DNA of 64,000 nucleotides from Alphaproteobacteria bacterium MedPE-SWcel (GTDB taxonomy: Bacteria > Pseudomonadota > Alphaproteobacteria > Rhodobacterales > Rhodobacteraceae), in NCBI GenBank assembly GCA_001874255.1, contig MPDC01000014.1:1-64000 (forward strand), given 5' to 3'. Below are positions 24,989 to 35,917 of this stretch, piece by piece; within the stretch, counting starts at the first letter, position 1, and every line of letters begins with the position of its first letter. Under the pieces are notes generated by a model. The model was not told the origin of the DNA and searched no databases. It saw only the letters and a list, made by a program, of their open reading frames with translations. The translations under genes were made by a program, and so were the position numbers.

Positions 24989-25486
24989 ATGAAAAAACAG
25001 ATCCTGATCGCGACTCTCCTGTCCTTGTCCACCGCGGCCGCGGCGACCATCGCAGTGGCCAAGCCCGGCTTTGACCCTGACCGCCAAAAGCCCACATTCG
25101 AGCAACTGGATGCAGATGGTGACGGCGCATTGACGCAGGCAGAAATCGCGGCCATGGGCCAGAAGCGCTTTGACGAGGCTGACGCCAATGGTGACGGGCT
25201 GTTGACGGCTGAAGAAATGACTGCCAAGGCGCAGGAACGGATGGCCAAACGGACCGATGCTATGATCGAACGGTTCGACAAGAACGACGACGGTGCGCTC
25301 AGCGTTGAGGAAATGCCCCAGCGCCCCGGACCACACAAGCTGCTGGAGAAGGCAGATACCAATGGGGACGGGTCGATCTCCAAGGCGGAGTTCGATACCG
25401 CTCAGGCGATCATCGAAGCCGTGATGAAAAAGAAACATCGCCGCGGTGGGCCCGACCACAGGGGTCATGGCGCCGACTCGGAGTAA
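24989..25486 (+). CDS. EF-hand calcium-binding protein with signal peptide
   Basis: Repeated DxDGDG-type loops: DADGDGALTQAE, DANGDGLLTAEE, DKNDDGALSVEE, DTNGDGSISKAE. Confidence 0.9.
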   Translation: MKKQILIATLLSLSTAAAATIAVAKPGFDPDRQKPTFEQLDADGDGALTQAEIAAMGQKRFDEADANGDGLLTAEEMTAKAQERMAKRTDAMIERFDKNDDGALSVEEMPQRPGPHKLLEKADTNGDGSISKAEFDTAQAIIEAVMKKKHRRGGPDHRGHGADSE

Positions 25487-25511
25487 GTCCGATCTGGGCA
25501 GAACAGTGCAT

Positions 25512-26177
25512 ATGTTTGCCGATCAACCTGCGCCTCCCTCACGGGGGGAGGCGCGCATGATGGGGCTGCGCCGCGGGGGCGCCGCAGCGGCCGTCACTGT
25601 CGAGCCGGAACCCGAGGTGACTGATGAGGCGCTTCTGGTGCTGTTCGCCAATGGCGATCCCACGGTTGCCGCAGAGCTGACCCGTCGTCTCGGCCCGCGC
25701 GTGTTGGGCGTGGCCACGCGGGTACTCGGAAATAGGGCGGAGGCCGAAGATGTCACCCAGGAGACGATGATCCGGCTGTGGAAGATGGCGCCGGACTGGC
25801 GTCAGGGGGAGGCGCGGGTCTCGACCTGGCTCTATCGGGTGACAATGAACCTATGTATCGATATCAAGCGCCGCGCCCGGGGCGGGACGGTGGATCTTGA
25901 TGCGGTGCCGGAGCCGCCGGACCCTGCCGCCAGCGCTGCAGAGACCCTGCAGAACCAGGCGCGTGCCGATGCGCTGCAGGCCGCGTTGATGACCTTGCCA
26001 GAGCGCCAGCGCCAGGCGGTCGTCCTGCGGCACATCGAAGAGCTTACGAACCCGGAGATTGCCGGGATCATGGAGATCGGCGTGGAAGCAGTAGAGAGCC
26101 TGACGGCACGGGGCAAACGGTCCCTTGCCAGGGCGCTGGCCGGGCGACGAGATGAATTGGGGTATCAGGATGGCTGA
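25512..26177 (+). CDS. ECF-type RNA polymerase sigma factor
   Basis: RVLGNRAEAEDVTQETMIRLWKMAPDWR (region 2), LPERQRQAVVLRHIEELTNPEIAGIMEIGVEAVESLTARGKRSLA (region 4). Confidence 0.92.
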   Translation: MFADQPAPPSRGEARMMGLRRGGAAAAVTVEPEPEVTDEALLVLFANGDPTVAAELTRRLGPRVLGVATRVLGNRAEAEDVTQETMIRLWKMAPDWRQGEARVSTWLYRVTMNLCIDIKRRARGGTVDLDAVPEPPDPAASAAETLQNQARADALQAALMTLPERQRQAVVLRHIEELTNPEIAGIMEIGVEAVESLTARGKRSLARALAGRRDELGYQDG

Positions 26178-26583
26178 TCATCACGACAATTTTGACGAAA
26201 CCGAAGCCCTGTTTCGCGAGGCGCGCAACGCGCGTCCCGCCGTATCCGAACGGCTGGTCTCCGCGATCCTCGCTGATGCGGCGGCACAACAGGCACAGTG
26301 GCAGGTGCCCGCAATCACGCTCCCGATCACATCGCAGGACGGCACCGACAGGCGCGGCCCCGTTGCGGCTCTGGTTTCCGCATTGGGCGGGTGGGTTTCG
26401 GTCGGTGGGCTGGTGGCGGCAAGCTGCACCGGTCTGTGGATCGGGATTGCCGGGCCGGAGGTGGTTATGACTGCGACCGGCCTCGGCGCGTTCGGCGATG
26501 CCTCCGCCATGGTCAGCGGCGACGATTACGCGGCTTATGAAACTTTTGATCTGGCCACGGTTCTGGCAGAGGATATGCAATGA
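26170..26583 (+). CDS. Putative anti-sigma/membrane protein
   Basis: Single predicted TM (VSVGGLVAASCTGLWIGIAGP), overlapping the sigma gene by 8 nt. Confidence 0.6.
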   Translation: MADHHDNFDETEALFREARNARPAVSERLVSAILADAAAQQAQWQVPAITLPITSQDGTDRRGPVAALVSALGGWVSVGGLVAASCTGLWIGIAGPEVVMTATGLGAFGDASAMVSGDDYAAYETFDLATVLAEDMQ

Positions 26584-27125
26584 CTGATCGCTCCGATACC
26601 AAACCCCTTTCCCGCACGCCGCGCTGGCTCAAGCTGGCGTTTGCGCTCTCGCTGGGGGCTAACCTGGCGGTGGTCGGTGTGGTTGCAGGGGCCGCCCTGC
26701 GGGAGGCACCGCGTGGGGACAAGCGCTATCACAAGGCGCCGCCGCCGCCAGCGGCTGCCGATGCCATTGGGGGCGTCATGTACCGCAGCCTTCCCCGGGA
26801 GCAGCGGAGAATGCTGCGCGATCTGGGCGAAGGCGAGTTCGACACTATTGTCGCGCGTCGCATCGCAGAGCTGAAGGCGCTGTTGGAGCTGATCCGGCAG
26901 GAGCCGCTGGATGTTGGCCGGTTGCGCGACCGTATTGCCGAACAGGCGGCCGAGAGCGAGAGCTTCAAGTCCACCCTGCAGGATGCCTGGATCGGCAAGC
27001 TGGAACAGATGACCCCGGAAGAACGGGCGACTTTTGCCGATCGGGTCGAGCGCCATATCGCCCGGTTCCGCAAGCCGAAATCGGCTGATGGGCGCGGTGA
27101 GGGCCCCCAAAGAGCCGCGGATTGA
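26580..27125 (+). CDS. Periplasmic heavy-metal-sensor-like protein (CnrX/CpxP-type)
   Basis: One N-terminal TM followed by a helical periplasmic domain (MYRSLPREQRRMLRDLGEGEF...MTPEERATFADRVERHIARFRKP); ATGA overlap with the previous gene. Confidence 0.75.
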   Translation: MTDRSDTKPLSRTPRWLKLAFALSLGANLAVVGVVAGAALREAPRGDKRYHKAPPPPAAADAIGGVMYRSLPREQRRMLRDLGEGEFDTIVARRIAELKALLELIRQEPLDVGRLRDRIAEQAAESESFKSTLQDAWIGKLEQMTPEERATFADRVERHIARFRKPKSADGRGEGPQRAAD

Positions 27126-27312: not shown

Positions 27313-28713
27313 TCAGGCCGCTGCCGGACGCGACGCCGCGCCCAGCGAGGTCTGGTTACGTCCGGCACGTTTGGCATCATAGAGTGCCCGGTCCGCGGCG
27401 GCGAAGAGGCCATCGACCGAGGTCTCGCCCGTATGGGATCCGCCGATGACCGCGCCGATGCTGATGGTCACCTCGATCGGGATCGGAGCACCGGAAATGG
27501 TGAAGGGGGCCGCGTTGATTGCGCTGCACAACCGGGTTGCCATGCTGTCGGCTTCGGCGGCGGAGACGCCGGGTATGACGACCATGAACTCCTCGCCTCC
27601 GATACGGGCCAGCAGGTCGCAGTTGCGCAGCTCAGCCTGCAGCCGCCGGGCCGCTTCGACCAGAACCGCATCACCGACCGGGTGGCCGAACTGATCGTTG
27701 ATCCGCTTGAAATGGTCCAGATCCGCAACCATCACTGCAAATTGCTGACCGGACTGCGTTGCATCACAGGCCACCCGCGACAGGAACGGTTTTGCGTACC
27801 GCCGGTTGTAAAGTCCGGTCATCGGGTCCTCCATCGCCGCGCGCAAGCTGTTGCGCACTTCGTCCCGGGCCCGTTCGGCACGGCTTTTATATTGAAGCTG
27901 TGTGTTGATCCGCAGCACCAGTTCGTCCACCTGAAACCCGCAGTGCAGCACGTCATGCGCACCGCGGTCCAGCGCTTCGGCGGCGATCATGGCATCAGCC
28001 GGGTTGGGCACCGCGATCACCACGCAGTCACGGGTGCTGGCCCGCGCCCGGAGGTCGGCGAGAAGGCGCAGTGCCATGCCGGCAGAGAGTTCGTTCAATT
28101 CGATCACGATCACATCCGGTACCGGAGACCGCATCAGGTTCTGGAGGGCGTCGATGGTATAGGCGCGCAGGTCATCGCTGACCTGTGTGGAGAGTCGGCT
28201 TTTCCATTTGTGCGCGGTTTGCAGGTCGTGACACAGCAGCGCGATCCGGGCGTCCGGCCTTTGCGGCAGGCGCGTCGCTTCGGCACGGGGCATCACCAGC
28301 CCATGCGGGCCGTCTTCGCACAGATGCAGGCCTTCGTCCTGGGGGCGCATGCGGAGCAGGCTGCGGATACGGGCCTGAAGGATCATATCGTCCACGGGCT
28401 GCGGCAATACTTCGTCAATTCCCGCCGACAGAGCCTTGATCCGGGTCGCCCGGTCATTCTGTGCACTGAGAGCGATCACCGGCACATCCGCGACCTGCGC
28501 GATGCGGGCCAGGGCCTGCTTCACAGCCGCCGCGTCGCCGTCAGGAAGGGACATCGCCGTCAGGATCAGATCGGGCCGGTTGCCTGCTGCCAGCTCTGTG
28601 GCGACGGCAACGGAGTCGGCCTGCAGCACCTGGAAACAGGCCGCCGTCAGCTGCACCTTCAAAATGATGCGATTGATGGAGACCCCATCTATGATCAGGA
28701 TCGTACCTTGCAA
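27313..28713 (-). CDS. PleD-like diguanylate cyclase (REC-REC-GGDEF)
   Basis: DPMTGLYNRRYAKPFL...RNCDLLARIGGEEFMVVIPG (I-site RNCD and GGEEF); two N-terminal receiver-like domains. Confidence 0.92.
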   Translation of the reverse strand: MQGTILIIDGVSINRIILKVQLTAACFQVLQADSVAVATELAAGNRPDLILTAMSLPDGDAAAVKQALARIAQVADVPVIALSAQNDRATRIKALSAGIDEVLPQPVDDMILQARIRSLLRMRPQDEGLHLCEDGPHGLVMPRAEATRLPQRPDARIALLCHDLQTAHKWKSRLSTQVSDDLRAYTIDALQNLMRSPVPDVIVIELNELSAGMALRLLADLRARASTRDCVVIAVPNPADAMIAAEALDRGAHDVLHCGFQVDELVLRINTQLQYKSRAERARDEVRNSLRAAMEDPMTGLYNRRYAKPFLSRVACDATQSGQQFAVMVADLDHFKRINDQFGHPVGDAVLVEAARRLQAELRNCDLLARIGGEEFMVVIPGVSAAEADSMATRLCSAINAAPFTISGAPIPIEVTISIGAVIGGSHTGETSVDGLFAAADRALYDAKRAGRNQTSLGAASRPAAA

Positions 28714-29152: not shown

Positions 29153-29842
29153 ATGACACTTTCCGCGCTTCTGTTTGACAAGGACGGTACGCTGTTCGAC
29201 TTCTCCCGGACCTGGGATGGCTGGTCGATGACGATGCTGGAGGACTTGGCAGAGGGCAACACCGACCGGTTGATGGCCATGGCCGATGCCATCAGCTACG
29301 ATCTGCAGCAACGCACCTTCCGTCCGGACAGTATTGCCATCGCGGGCACGAATGGTGAAGTCGCCGCGCGGCTGTCGCCGCATGTGCCGGGCCAGACCCC
29401 GGCGGAACTCGCGACCTATCTGACCCGGACAGCCGCAGAGGCGGAATTGGCGCAGGCGGTGCCTCTGGCGCCGTTTCTCGACGGGTTGCGCGGACAGGGA
29501 TACAGGTTGGGCGTGATGACCAATGACGGCGAACATTCGGCCCGCCGCCACCTGTCTCGGTCCGGCGTGCTGGATCTCTTTCACATGGTGATTGGCTCCG
29601 ACAGTGGCTATGGCGCCAAGCCAGATCCCGACCCCCTGCTGGCTTTCTGCAAGGTCACCTCGGTTGCGCCGTCGCAAACTGCCATGGTGGGGGACAGCCT
29701 GCACGACCTGATCGCGGGACGCGCGGCAGGCATGCAGACCATTGGCGTTCTGACCGGCATGGCCAGCGCCGCTGATCTTGCGCCGCACGCAGATGTGGTG
29801 CTGCCGGATATCGGACACATCCCGGCCTGGCTGGCCAGTTGA
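29153..29842 (+). CDS. HAD-family hydrolase (phosphoglycolate phosphatase-like)
   Basis: LLFDKDGTLFDF, MVGDSLHDLIAGRAAGM. Confidence 0.92.
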   Translation: MTLSALLFDKDGTLFDFSRTWDGWSMTMLEDLAEGNTDRLMAMADAISYDLQQRTFRPDSIAIAGTNGEVAARLSPHVPGQTPAELATYLTRTAAEAELAQAVPLAPFLDGLRGQGYRLGVMTNDGEHSARRHLSRSGVLDLFHMVIGSDSGYGAKPDPDPLLAFCKVTSVAPSQTAMVGDSLHDLIAGRAAGMQTIGVLTGMASAADLAPHADVVLPDIGHIPAWLAS

Positions 29843-29977
29843 ACTCCAAAGGGTCGGCGCCAAGCGGCATCCTGCGACGGGAAAGCGACATGCCGTGTCG
29901 GTAATGGACAGGTGTGTCTGGAGGCCGGTGAGGCAATATCGACGGAGCATTCGGTTCAAAGTCTGAGAGGGAGCATC

Positions 29978-31537
29978 ATGTCGGAGACAGTTGCGCGCAA
30001 ACGGCGTGGCGGCGGCAGGGCGGGGGCTGCGGCCCGTCGCGGCACGGCAACGCTGGAACAGATGCCGTGGAATCCTCCGACGAATATCGACCGGCCGATC
30101 GAGCCTTTGACCGCCGAAGGCATTGCTGCAATCCATGATGGCGCCATGCGCATCCTCGAGGAAATCGGGGTGCAGTTCCTGAATGCCGAAGCGTTGAAGA
30201 TCTTTCGGGAGGCCGGCGTCAAGGTGGACGGGGAGCTGGTCCGGATGGACCGCGACTTTGTCATGGAAATGGTGGCCAAGGCGCCGTCGGAATTCACTCT
30301 GACCCCGCGCAACCCGGATCGAAAAATCCGCATCGGTGGGGACACGATGGTTTTCGGCAATGTGTCCTCGCCGCCGAACTACTGGGACATGGAGCTGAAC
30401 AAGAAGGTCCCCGGCACCCGCACGCAATGTCAGAACCTGCTGAAACTGACCCAGTATTTCAATTGTATCCACTTCGCCGGCGGCTATCCGGTGGAGCCTG
30501 TGGACATTCATGCATCGGTGCGCCACCTGGATGTGCTTCTTGACAAGCTGACGATCACAGACAAGGTGATGCACGCCTATTCGCTCGGCAAGGAGCGGGT
30601 GGAAGATGTGATGGAAATGGTGCGGATCGCCGGCGGGCTGAGTCATGCGGACTTCGAGGCGGCACCGCATATGTACACCAATATCAACTCCACCTCGCCG
30701 TTGAAACATGACGAGCCGATGATCGACGGCTCGCTGCGGCTGATCCGGCGGGGTCAGCCGGTCATCGTGTCGCCCTTTACGCTGGCAGGGGCGATGGCGC
30801 CGGTCACCATGGCGGGCGCGGTCGCCCAGTCTCTGGCAGAATCGCTCTGCGCGATTGCGCTGTTTCAATACGTCCGCCCCGGGGCCCCCTGCGCCATTGG
30901 CACCTTCACGTCGAACGTGGATATGAAGTCCGGTGCGCCTGCCTTTGGCACCCCGGAATACATGCGGGCGACCCAGATGACCGGCCAGATGGCCCGGTTT
31001 TACGGGCTGCCGATGCGGTCTTCGGGGGTCTGTGCCGCCAATGTGCCGGATGGTCAGGCCATGTGGGAGACCTCGAATTCGCTCTGGGCCGCCGTGCAAT
31101 CGGGAACCAACATGGTCTATCACGCGGCTGGGTGGCTCGAGGGGGGGCTGATCGCCAGCCCCGAAAAATTCATCATGGATTGCGAGGTGCTGCAGATGAT
31201 CCAGCGCTATATGGATCCCGCGATCGTGGCGACCGGTCCCGATGAGATCGCGCTGGACGCCATTCGCGAGGTCGGCAATGAAGGTCATTTCTTTGGCATT
31301 CAGCACACCCAGGATCGCTATACGACGGCGTTCTATCAGCCATTCCTGAGCGACTGGCGCAACTATGAGGCCTGGGAGGCCGCAGGCGGCGTCTGGACTG
31401 CAGAACGTGCGCACAAGATCTACAAGCAGATCATTGCTGAATTTGAAGAGCCGCCGATGGATCCGGCCATCCGGGAGGAACTGGCGGCCTTTGTCGCGCG
31501 GCGAAAATCAGAAGGTGGCGCTCCTACCGACTTCTAA
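29978..31537 (+). CDS. MttB-superfamily (trimethylamine/betaine) methyltransferase, non-pyrrolysine type
   Basis: IHDGAMRILEEIGVQFLNAEALKIFREAGVKVDGE, TMVFGNVSSPPNYWDMELNKKVPGTRTQC; full-length ORF without internal amber codon. Confidence 0.9.
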   Translation: MSETVARKRRGGGRAGAAARRGTATLEQMPWNPPTNIDRPIEPLTAEGIAAIHDGAMRILEEIGVQFLNAEALKIFREAGVKVDGELVRMDRDFVMEMVAKAPSEFTLTPRNPDRKIRIGGDTMVFGNVSSPPNYWDMELNKKVPGTRTQCQNLLKLTQYFNCIHFAGGYPVEPVDIHASVRHLDVLLDKLTITDKVMHAYSLGKERVEDVMEMVRIAGGLSHADFEAAPHMYTNINSTSPLKHDEPMIDGSLRLIRRGQPVIVSPFTLAGAMAPVTMAGAVAQSLAESLCAIALFQYVRPGAPCAIGTFTSNVDMKSGAPAFGTPEYMRATQMTGQMARFYGLPMRSSGVCAANVPDGQAMWETSNSLWAAVQSGTNMVYHAAGWLEGGLIASPEKFIMDCEVLQMIQRYMDPAIVATGPDEIALDAIREVGNEGHFFGIQHTQDRYTTAFYQPFLSDWRNYEAWEAAGGVWTAERAHKIYKQIIAEFEEPPMDPAIREELAAFVARRKSEGGAPTDF

Positions 31538-31947: not shown

Positions 31948-32535
31948 ATGCACGGTTTGATCAATAGGGCAGTCCAGGCGTTTGTCAGTAGCACATATGG
32001 GAGCAAGCGCTGGAACGAGATCATGGACGCAAGCGAACTTGGATTTTCCGAGTTCGAGGCGATGCTCGTGTACCCTGAAGATCAATCAATGCGCATGATG
32101 CGTGCAGTAGAACGGAGCCTGGAACGCCCATTGCTCGAAATTCTGGAAGATGTCGGGACTTTCCTGGTCTCCAACCCCCAGGTGGAGGCACTGCGCCGTC
32201 TGCTGCGGTTTGGTGGCGTCAACTACGTCGAATTCCTGCATTCCCTGGATGACTTGCCCGACCGGGCGCGGCTGGCCGTCTCTGACCTGCATTTGCCGGG
32301 TTTGGAGCTGATCGAGCAGGCCCCCGGTCAGTTCGAACTCCTGTGTCAACCGGGGGTGCCGGGCTATGCGCAGGTCATGACGGGCGTGCTGCGGGCGATG
32401 GCTGATGATTATGGCGCCCTGGTGATCCTTGATCTCGCCGGAACACAGGACGGCGCCGATGTGATCTCCATTACGCTGATCGAAAGCGAATTTTCCGAGG
32501 GCCGGACCTTTGATCTGGGAGCGCATCCCCTATGA
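31948..32535 (+). CDS. H-NOX (haem NO-binding)-like domain protein, degenerate haem-binding residues
   Basis: MHGLINRAVQAFVSSTYGSKRWNEI...LLRFGGVNYVEFLHSLDDLPDRARLAV aligns by eye to soluble guanylate cyclase H-NOX; His and YxSxR not conserved. Confidence 0.85.
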   Translation: MHGLINRAVQAFVSSTYGSKRWNEIMDASELGFSEFEAMLVYPEDQSMRMMRAVERSLERPLLEILEDVGTFLVSNPQVEALRRLLRFGGVNYVEFLHSLDDLPDRARLAVSDLHLPGLELIEQAPGQFELLCQPGVPGYAQVMTGVLRAMADDYGALVILDLAGTQDGADVISITLIESEFSEGRTFDLGAHPL

Positions 32536-33548
32536 TGAGCTTGCAGGACCTCACCGGCTTGGCCAATCAGATCTGCCCTATGCATGTCATTATCGACATT
32601 GAGGGCAATCTGACAAGTTACGGCCCGACACTGGATAAGATCCGGGGTGACGAATCCTGGGAGGGGCGGTCCTTTTTCGATATTTTCGATCTGCAGCGAC
32701 CGCGCTGGGTGAAGACCATCGGGGATCTGATGGAGACGACCGGCAGTAAGCTTCACTTCCAATTGCGCTCTGCGCCGCATACCCGGATGAAGGGGGTGCT
32801 GGTGCCGCTGCCCGACGGCAAAGGGGCCTTTATCAACCTGTCCTTCGGGATATCCGTGCTGGACGCGGTTCGCGATTTTGATCTGACCAGTCAGGATTTC
32901 TCGCCGACGGATCTGACCATCGAGATGCTGTATCTTGTCGAAGCCAAATCTGCTGCGATGGAGGCGTCGCGCCAGTTGAACCTGCGCCTGCAAGGGGCGA
33001 AGATCGCCGCCGAAGAACAGGCCTTTACCGATACGCTGACCGGCGTCAAGAACCGTCGCGCAATGGATCACGTGCTCAATCGTTTGATCAACAGCGGCCG
33101 GGATTTCGCACTGATGCATGTGGATCTCGATTTCTTCAAGCAGGTCAATGACACCTATGGCCACGCTGCGGGCGATGCGGTGTTGCAGCGGGTGGCCGCG
33201 ATCATGGTCGATTGCACCCGGAAATCCGATACCGTCGCACGGATCGGGGGCGATGAATTCGTCCTCATCTTTGAAGGCCTGATGGACATCGGGCGGCTGG
33301 GCGAACTGGCCCAACGCCTGATCCAGAGGCTGGAGGACCCGATGATGTACGGTGCTCAGACCTGCAGGATCTCGGCCTCTGCGGGCACGACATTGTCGTC
33401 CTCCATGTCCCAGCCCGATGCGGCGCAATTGCTTCATCAGGCGGATGTGGCGCTTTATGGCGCAAAACGGGCAGGGCGGGCGCAGCACATGTTCTTTGCG
33501 CCTCATCTCGAAGCCGAGATGGCGCCTCCCGACAGCAAATCTGCCTGA
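32532..33548 (+). CDS. GGDEF diguanylate cyclase with HNOBA/PAS-like N-terminus
   Basis: DTLTGVKNRRAMDHVLNRL...ARIGGDEFVLIFEG; overlaps the H-NOX gene (ATGATG). Confidence 0.92.
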   Translation: MMSLQDLTGLANQICPMHVIIDIEGNLTSYGPTLDKIRGDESWEGRSFFDIFDLQRPRWVKTIGDLMETTGSKLHFQLRSAPHTRMKGVLVPLPDGKGAFINLSFGISVLDAVRDFDLTSQDFSPTDLTIEMLYLVEAKSAAMEASRQLNLRLQGAKIAAEEQAFTDTLTGVKNRRAMDHVLNRLINSGRDFALMHVDLDFFKQVNDTYGHAAGDAVLQRVAAIMVDCTRKSDTVARIGGDEFVLIFEGLMDIGRLGELAQRLIQRLEDPMMYGAQTCRISASAGTTLSSSMSQPDAAQLLHQADVALYGAKRAGRAQHMFFAPHLEAEMAPPDSKSA

Positions 33549-33590
33549 CCTTTTCGCCTGACCTTTCTGCCTGACTCTGCCTGACCGTAG
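33543..33590. repeat. Short tandem repeat at the GGDEF gene stop
   Basis: gcctgaccttttc / gcctgacctttct / gcctgactct / gcctgaccgt. Confidence 0.65.
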
Positions 33591-33802
33591 TGAGGGCCAT
33601 GTTCTGTTGCCCGCAGCGCTGCCCGAAGGGCGCGCTGCTGTTTCGGCTGCGGTTGGCCGCCGATCGGGGCGCGCCGCTGGGGTTGCTGCGGCGCGGTGAT
33701 CCTGAATTGGTCTGGTTGAATTGGCGATTATTGGCGCTTTGTCCTGAGCTGCCCGTGATCTACGACGGAGCGAGCCACATCGCCAATGCGGAGCCATGTC
33801 AT

Positions 33803-35917
33803 ATGCCCCAGACCGATCTGAAACATCCCTCTGCCGCCGGACAGGAGCGTCAGCCGCGCCCCGGCACGCAGATCCGGCCGAGCGTCTGTCCGCTGGATTG
33901 CCCGGATACCTGCAGCCTCAGCGTCGAGGTCACCGACGGGCAAATCGTGGCCGTGCGCGGCTCGGAGGCCAACCCGTTCACCGCCGGGGTTGTCTGCAAC
34001 AAGGTGGCGCGGGCCTATCCAGATTTTGTGCACGGGCCGGCTCGGCTGACACATCCGCTGCGCCGGACCGGGCCGCGCGGGTCCGGACTGTATGAGCGTA
34101 TCTCCTGGGACCGCGCGCTTGATCTGGTGCATGACGGGATGCAGAACGCCATCGAACAGTTCGGACCGCAATCCATCTTGCCCCTGAATTACGCGGGGCC
34201 CCATGGTGAACTGGCGGGCGGGTCGCTGGACCGGCGATTTTTCTACCGTCTTGGTGCAACCCGCATGAACCGGGGGCCGTTGTGTGGCGGTGTCCGGGGG
34301 CTGGCCTACGAGAGCCTCTACGGGGATGCGCCGGGCATGCCGCCGGAGCAGGCGACCCAGTCCGATCTGATCGTGGTCTGGGGCAACAATGTGACCGTCT
34401 CCAACCTGCATCTGACCCGTGTCGTCAAAGCCGCCCGGGCGCAGGGCGCGCGCCTTGTGGTCATTGATCCGAAACGGATCAAGATTGCCCAGCAGGCGGA
34501 TCTGTACTTGCAGCTCCGCCCCGGAACCGATGTGGTGCTGGCGCAGGGCCTGGCAGCGGAACTTGAACGGCGGGGCGCCTTTGACAGGGCCTTCATTGAG
34601 CGCTGGACCGAAGGCTGCGCCCCCTACATGGAGGAGGCGCGCCGCTACAGTCTGGCTGCGACCGCGGATATCTGCGGCCTGTCGCTGGCGGATCTCGGGC
34701 AACTGGCCGATTGGATGCAGGCGGCAGAGCGTATGGCCACGTCGCTGGGCAATGGAATCGAGCGCGGGCGCTCGGGGGGATCGGGGCTGCGCGCGGCGAT
34801 GGCGCTGAATGCGCTGCTGGGCCAACATGGCCGCCCCGGAGCCGGTATCATTGCCAAATCCGGTCTGGCCGCGCCCAAGACCCGAGCGCGTCTTCAGGGC
34901 GACCACTTGATCGATCCCGAAACGCGGGTCGTCAACATTCTGGATGTCGCGCGGTTGATGCTGGACCGGGATCAGGCGGTGCCGGTCGGGGCCGTGATGA
35001 TATACAACCACAACCCGGTGGCCACGCATCCGGATCAGCTCCGCATGATCAAAGCCCTGAGTCAGGAGGAGATGTTCGTGGTCGGATGTGACGTCGTCAT
35101 GACCGACAGCATGGCCTATTGTGATGTCATCCTGCCGGCTGCGACCCATTTCGAACATGATGAGATCTTTGCCGCCTATGGGCAGAACTATGTTCAGCGG
35201 GCGGAGCCGGTGATTGCGCCTCTGGGCGAGAGCCTGCCCAACACGGAGATCTTTCGCCGTCTGGCGAGGCGTTTCGGCTATGTCGAAGCCGCGCATCAGG
35301 CCAGCGACGTCACCTTGATGAACGAAGCCATGGATGGCAGCCATCCGCAATTTTCCGGCCGTCCCCCCAGCGAGATGCCGACGGACCGGGCGCTTGAGAT
35401 GCAGGCTGAGGGAGGCGCGCCTCTGGTTCTTTGCGCCACGGTCCATCCCGCCACGGCCTCGGGCCGGATCGAATTGTTCAGCTCTGCTCTGGAACAGGCC
35501 GGGGGATTTGGCGTGCCGCGTTATGATCCCGTGCAACAGGACCTGCCATTGGTGTTGATCACGCCCAGCTCTGACAAGCGGATCAACGCAACATTCGGCA
35601 GCTCCCCTCTGTCAAGCGGGCCGGAAACTCTTGAGGTGCACCCGGCGGATGCCGCCGCGCGGGGGCTGAGCGACGGTGATCTTGTCGCGTTGGAGAACCA
35701 GCGGGGCAGCGTTACATTTCGGCTGCGTCTCTCGGATGCGATGCAGCAGGGGGTGGTCTATGCGGCCAAAGGAACCTGGCGGCAGAGTTCCGAAACCGGG
35801 CTGACGGCCAATGCTCTGATGTCGTCGTCGCTGCGCACCGATATTGGCGATGGGGCATGCTATAATGAAACCTTTGTTGAGCTGCGTCGCCACAGCGGGG
35901 CTGGGGCCGGAGCCTAG
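33803..35917 (+). CDS. Molybdopterin-dependent oxidoreductase (formate dehydrogenase/BisC superfamily)
   Basis: SVCPLDCPDTCSLSVEVTDGQIVAVRG Fe-S motif; NNVTVSNLHLTRVVKAARAQGARLVVIDPKR. Confidence 0.92.
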   Translation: MPQTDLKHPSAAGQERQPRPGTQIRPSVCPLDCPDTCSLSVEVTDGQIVAVRGSEANPFTAGVVCNKVARAYPDFVHGPARLTHPLRRTGPRGSGLYERISWDRALDLVHDGMQNAIEQFGPQSILPLNYAGPHGELAGGSLDRRFFYRLGATRMNRGPLCGGVRGLAYESLYGDAPGMPPEQATQSDLIVVWGNNVTVSNLHLTRVVKAARAQGARLVVIDPKRIKIAQQADLYLQLRPGTDVVLAQGLAAELERRGAFDRAFIERWTEGCAPYMEEARRYSLAATADICGLSLADLGQLADWMQAAERMATSLGNGIERGRSGGSGLRAAMALNALLGQHGRPGAGIIAKSGLAAPKTRARLQGDHLIDPETRVVNILDVARLMLDRDQAVPVGAVMIYNHNPVATHPDQLRMIKALSQEEMFVVGCDVVMTDSMAYCDVILPAATHFEHDEIFAAYGQNYVQRAEPVIAPLGESLPNTEIFRRLARRFGYVEAAHQASDVTLMNEAMDGSHPQFSGRPPSEMPTDRALEMQAEGGAPLVLCATVHPATASGRIELFSSALEQAGGFGVPRYDPVQQDLPLVLITPSSDKRINATFGSSPLSSGPETLEVHPADAAARGLSDGDLVALENQRGSVTFRLRLSDAMQQGVVYAAKGTWRQSSETGLTANALMSSSLRTDIGDGACYNETFVELRRHSGAGAGA

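Follow-up and report, generated by a model that had tools for sequence, protein, structure and literature searches.

An H-NOX protein without canonical haem-binding residues is paired with an HNOBA-GGDEF cyclase in Rhodobacteraceae

In Alphaproteobacteria bacterium MedPE-SWcel, a gene for an H-NOX protein overlaps a gene for a predicted diguanylate cyclase, yet the H-NOX protein lacks the residues that hold haem in its classical relatives, which raises the question of what such a pair does. We analyzed the 64,000-nucleotide stretch of contig MPDC01000014.1 that carries it (hereafter the window). The H-NOX gene (31948–32535, forward strand) encodes 195 amino acids, which matched the Pfam HNOB profile with an E-value of 3.5e-20 (73 bits, against a cut-off of 25.5). 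An AlphaFold2 model built from 113 family members (pLDDT 91.2, pTM 0.87) was superimposed by Foldseek on Nostoc H-NOX 3tf8 with a TM score of 0.82 at 2.3 Å, indicating that the assignment is not due to chance, and the H-NOX fold proposed by a first-pass annotation of this DNA is thus well founded. In HMMER comparisons with solved structures, most of the protein aligned with Nostoc H-NOX (alr2278), while the match to the beta1 subunit of soluble guanylate cyclase (sGC) was weaker. The genome encodes one HNOB and one HNOBA protein, namely the two members of the overlapping pair, and has nine GGDEF matches.

The proximal haem ligand of alr2278, His105, paired with Pro104 of the window protein (codon CCC, 32257–32259, forward strand) without a gap nearby. 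This residue lies in helix F (residues 93–110). An alignment of 126 Rhodobacteraceae homologues, which are members of the window protein's own H-NOX group, gave the same register, with the structural proline that follows helix F (P118 in alr2278, P117 in the window protein) conserved in 126/126, so that both alignments agree with the first-pass placement of Pro104 at the proximal position. The haem-propionate motif YxSxR paired with C133-x-P135-x-V137, and all three motif residues were absent. The motif had already been called lost, and that call stood; its counterpart had been set one residue early, at LCQPG, and is in fact CQPGV (residues 133–137, 32344–32358, forward strand), a shift without consequence. 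In the genus, 16 distinct proteins carry Pro at position 104 and the 17th carries Ser, and the Pro codons were CCC, CCG, and CCA. A sequencing error or single-strain oddity was rejected on the basis of these 16 proteins and their three synonymous codons.

Both losses extended across the family. Position 104 in the 126 homologues was occupied by Pro (89), His (18), Ser (4), Asn (3), Gln (3), Arg (3), Gly (2), Ala (2), Glu (1), and Lys (1), so that the proximal His was gone in 108 of them, and YxSxR was gone in nearly the whole family. A second set of 80 named genomes, found via the HNOBA domain of the partner rather than via H-NOX, had Pro in 67, Ser in nine, and Ala in two, with two unscored; no His was found at this position among the 78 that were scored. 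The Ser cases were eight Ruegeria and one Bugula-associated Rhodobacteraceae, and both Ala cases were Ruegeria. Conservation of the two losses among orthologues, which the first-pass annotation had proposed to check, was thus confirmed. Of 298 genomes sampled from the family, 224 encode HNOB proteins, a count that also takes in a separate haem-type HNOB group, in which the proximal His was kept in all 28 proteins examined. Among 337 genomes sampled across the class, only the window's own family gave strong matches (>280 bits). A typical Rhodobacteraceae H-NOX/HNOBA-GGDEF locus was also present in a record titled Nocardioides marinus DP1N28-1 (L193), the name of which is probably wrong.

To trace the history of position 104, we used a tree of the partner cyclases only, the shape of which cannot be influenced by the H-NOX trait. 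By parsimony, the His/non-His label changed ten times on this tree, including at least four changes on well-supported branches, and 71 rows, among them the window, formed one group without any His, with a moderate branch support of 84. Because His was present in every haem-type relative examined, the changes are most simply read as losses. All four Pro codons occur at this position, which indicates that selection keeps Pro in most lineages. Over the family as a whole, however, column 104 was only average in conservation (rank 98 of 195), as would not be expected of a haem ligand. Ancestry-corrected analysis of residues changing together with His had only four independent pairs on supported branches. 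Trp or Phe at alr2278 position 136 was associated with the His state (10/17 vs. 13/107) in an uncorrected comparison, which ancestry may explain.

The partner gene (32532–33548, forward strand) encodes a predicted diguanylate cyclase of 338 amino acids, consisting of an HNOBA PAS domain, a signalling helix, and a GGDEF domain. Its start codon overlaps the stop codon of the H-NOX gene by 4 bp in a shared ATGA (32532–32535, forward strand), and the catalytic domain (33021–33482, forward strand; Pfam E-value 7.1e-42) has an intact GGDEF motif and an RxxD inhibitory site (RKSD), bearing out the overlap with an intact cyclase that had been noted from the sequence. The HNOBA match covers residues 10–83 (32559–32780, forward strand; Pfam E-value 7.2e-7), and homology on this side runs on through the signalling helix to about residue 155. 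When compared with PDB entries, the HNOBA-region profile matched the Nostoc H-NOXA PAS domain 2p04 (1.1e-6) and the PAS and coiled coil of sGC beta1 (3.8e-6). HNOBA is the H-NOX-associated PAS domain of sGC; it was overlooked in the first-pass annotation, and its presence on the cyclase explains the pairing of H-NOX with GGDEF.

This arrangement was widely shared. A separate partner gene was found at 124 of 126 homologues; the two others were a fusion (L101) and a locus near a contig end with no partner in the stretch examined (L118). All 124 partner cyclases had GGDEF and RxxD, 61 of the 124 pairs had the same −4 spacing, and HNOBA was detected in 50 of 52 partners tested. Two single-chain H-NOX-HNOBA-GGDEF fusions were found, L101 (528 amino acids) and L253 (536 amino acids), which were 63% identical. 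Both keep the His and come from a His-retaining branch, and therefore support the pairing in the family, not in the Pro clade itself. For an AlphaFold2 model of L101, the best PDB match along the full length was sGC beta1 (568 columns, E-value 6.6e-24); the domain folds were good, while their placement relative to each other was uncertain in the model (pTM 0.54) and did not match that in sGC (rmsd >20 Å).

Beside the pair are genes for a response regulator-GGDEF protein resembling PleD (27313–28713, reverse strand), a HAD hydrolase (29153–29842, forward strand), and an MTTB protein of the trimethylamine methyltransferase family (29912–31537, forward strand). An identical gene order was found on the 119.9 kb plasmid of Phaeobacter sp. 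G2, suggesting that these genes can move together as a unit. A molybdopterin oxidoreductase gene with Molybdopterin, Molydop_binding, and Fe4S4 domains lies directly downstream of the pair in the window (33590–35917, forward strand), and is absent after the pair on that plasmid. A gene for a sigma-70 family (ECF-like) factor (25446–26177) is closely followed by a heavy-metal resistance (Metal_resist) gene (26580–27125), both on the forward strand.

Without its haem residues, the H-NOX protein could be a remnant in decay that no longer regulates anything, and in-frame stops do occur occasionally among relatives: one TAA in genome G291 (L054), one TGA in G448 (G448:C98), and two TGA in G467 (G467:C236). 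These may represent occasional losses of H-NOX while the cyclase remains. Within the genus, however, the median dN/dS of H-NOX was 0.083 (an approximate value, taken from 90 usable pairs in which dS was high), indicating that the protein is maintained, and on this value a pseudogene was rejected. The gene was also present in all 17 genus genomes that were at least 90% complete, its overlap and partner are conserved, and a mutant phenotype is known in Paracoccus denitrificans (PMC5588039). A remnant is largely refuted by this purifying selection, and we regard it as very improbable.

What selection maintains appears to lie outside the haem site. The Pro members had invariant residues in common. 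Across the family, E67, D68, R83, R84, R87, R106, R149, D153, D154, Y155, and a C-terminal GRxFxLG were near invariant, and G70 and G146 were invariant. The set from E67 to Y155 and GRxFxLG are rare or absent in haem-type H-NOX proteins. Since they are present in members with and without the proximal His alike, selection holds something other than the haem site, and they form a candidate docking surface.

Haem could still be held, and NO sensed, through another ligand with weaker or distal coordination. His98, which had been described as one turn away from the ligand site, lies six residues before it and about 240 degrees round the helix, and is conserved in 61 of 89 Pro members; on this helix geometry and moderate conservation it was rejected as a replacement ligand. 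His2 (codon CAC, 31951–31953, forward strand) is better conserved, being present in 95% of the window-type family where haem-type H-NOX proteins have Tyr or Lys, and would be the possible candidate if another residue held haem. Ligation by His2 would also agree with the effect of P. denitrificans hnoX on NO consumption (PMC5588039) and with the common H-NOX fold kept by the Pro-type proteins. On the other hand, His2 is also found in most members with the proximal His and so is not a replacement that arose upon its loss, no Pro member retains YxSxR (the residue at alr2278 position 138 being mostly Leu, Val, or Ile, not Arg), and position 104 tolerates Ser, Asn, Gln, Arg, Gly, Ala, Glu, and Lys. 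A haem-bound NO sensor of this kind is therefore distinctly unlikely. Pro at the proximal site may, taken alone, be compatible with a weak or His2-ligated haem, and the partial conservation of the His98 column and of Cys133 (present in 62 of 89 Pro members; conserved, not invariant, in the genus) counts in part against a haem-independent protein. Absence of haem from the window H-NOX is nevertheless most likely.

This class of H-NOX proteins without the proximal His has been published, so the novelty is weaker than implied by the first-pass annotation (PMC8738867, PMC5588039). In the accessible part of a review (PMC8738867, Biosci Rep 2022), fewer than 10% of the members of "group 5" in a similarity network seeded with the P. 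denitrificans protein have this His, the majority carry Pro, and GGDEF genes are frequent neighbours; it is also asked there how sensing works without His. As far as that account goes, the window protein resembles group 5 in its fold, its conserved Gly hinges, its adjacent GGDEF gene, and the replacement of the proximal His mostly by Pro. Group 5 is reported there to have no conserved Cys, whereas the window group has Cys133 in most Pro members, a difference that is not decisive. The same part of the group 5 account makes no mention of an HNOBA partner, repeated losses, or fusions, the primary literature having been covered in part. Relative to the known class, we add the HNOBA domain of the partner, a count of how often the His changed independently, the Ruegeria group with Ser or Ala, two natural fusions, and a candidate docking surface.

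The H-NOX proteins of P. denitrificans and Rhodobacter sphaeroides were stated in 2017 to lack the axial His (PMC5588039), and the plasmid record of P. denitrificans gave Pro at the proximal position. Its HnoX/DgcA (Pden_3719/3720) is likewise an overlapping pair with an HNOBA-like N-terminus on the GGDEF partner, but HnoX shares ~38% identity with the window protein, and its gene lies on a secondary replicon. A P. denitrificans hnoX mutant was partly deficient in biofilm formation and consumed NO faster, a dgcAB mutant behaved in the opposite way, and the authors placed NO upstream of H-NOX (PMC5588039), a placement that speaks against an NO-independent protein. In Legionella (Hnox1/Lpg1057) and Shewanella woodyi (H-NOX/DGC), an H-NOX protein also controls an adjacent GGDEF protein; these H-NOX proteins contain haem and have the canonical residues, and the available parts of the sources do not call their partners HNOBA proteins.

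A His-retaining counterpart is found within the family itself. Genome G052, whose H-NOX (L049) lies at 2.97 Mb, is presumably that of Dinoroseobacter shibae DFL 12; this H-NOX keeps the proximal His and has CxWxR in place of YxSxR. The D. shibae pair (Dshi_2815 and its neighbour Dgc1) is of the same family and has an HNOBA-GGDEF partner, but it differs from the window pair in this His and in that its NO-bound H-NOX is reported, in the accessible portions of the sources, to inhibit Dgc1 (PMC7232146, PMC8846402). The window system also shares with sGC the order of H-NOX, H-NOXA PAS, signalling helix, and nucleotide cyclase, and a haem-free H-NOX occurs in sGC alpha1. The beta1 chain of sGC is a single polypeptide with a class III cyclase, whereas the window system is made of two genes with a GGDEF domain, the output of which is expected to be homodimeric.

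We propose that the window H-NOX is probably a haem-independent regulator of the overlapping cyclase, forming with it a split bacterial counterpart of sGC. The two genes would be one co-translated regulatory module, in which H-NOX would dock in trans on the HNOBA and signalling-helix part of the cyclase and set its activity. Having neither a haem ligand nor a propionate clamp, it would work without haem, as does the haem-free H-NOX of sGC alpha. A c-di-GMP module built on an H-NOX fold without classical haem/NO sensing, as the first-pass annotation had suggested, is the most likely reading of the losses among orthologues and the intact cyclase. In sGC-type H-NOX proteins, NO cuts the Fe–His link. 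The likeliest mode of the window protein would be inhibition of the cyclase independently of NO, as if it were permanently in the NO-bound, Fe–His-broken state that acts as the inhibitor in its His-keeping relatives. We favour such a fixed inhibitory state, by analogy, because inhibition is reported in D. shibae and was inferred for P. denitrificans, and because permanent loss of His would imitate a cut Fe–His link.

The main rival to a fixed haem-independent inhibitor is that the haem-free apolar pocket binds another small molecule or a lipid-like metabolite and signals this to the cyclase. The pocket positions L4, I/V5, L73, V74, L97, L100, L103, and P117 stay apolar and conserved, helix F is among the best-conserved parts of the protein, and a constitutive binder would have no need of an intact pocket. 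However, apolar conservation could equally be a folding requirement, and the residues at 104, 133, 135, and 137 vary across the family, unlike those of a specific binding site. We consider such a sensor rather unlikely, though still worth weighing.

HNOBA provides a structural reason for the pairing and ties the system to sGC alpha, whose haem-free H-NOX likewise persists. In a broader and more tentative reading, which we put forward as a possibility somewhat short of an even chance, the family may have repeatedly made a haem-independent subunit out of a gas sensor, one that either responds to a signal different from NO or keeps a constant brake on the cyclase. Related H-NOX/HNOBA-GGDEF pairs with and without His, among which the residue changed independently at least four times, occur in culturable bacteria of the Roseobacter group and offer a direct comparison for the question of sensing without His. 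If the proposed regulation is true, the family would provide naturally occurring His and Pro versions of one sGC-like machine.
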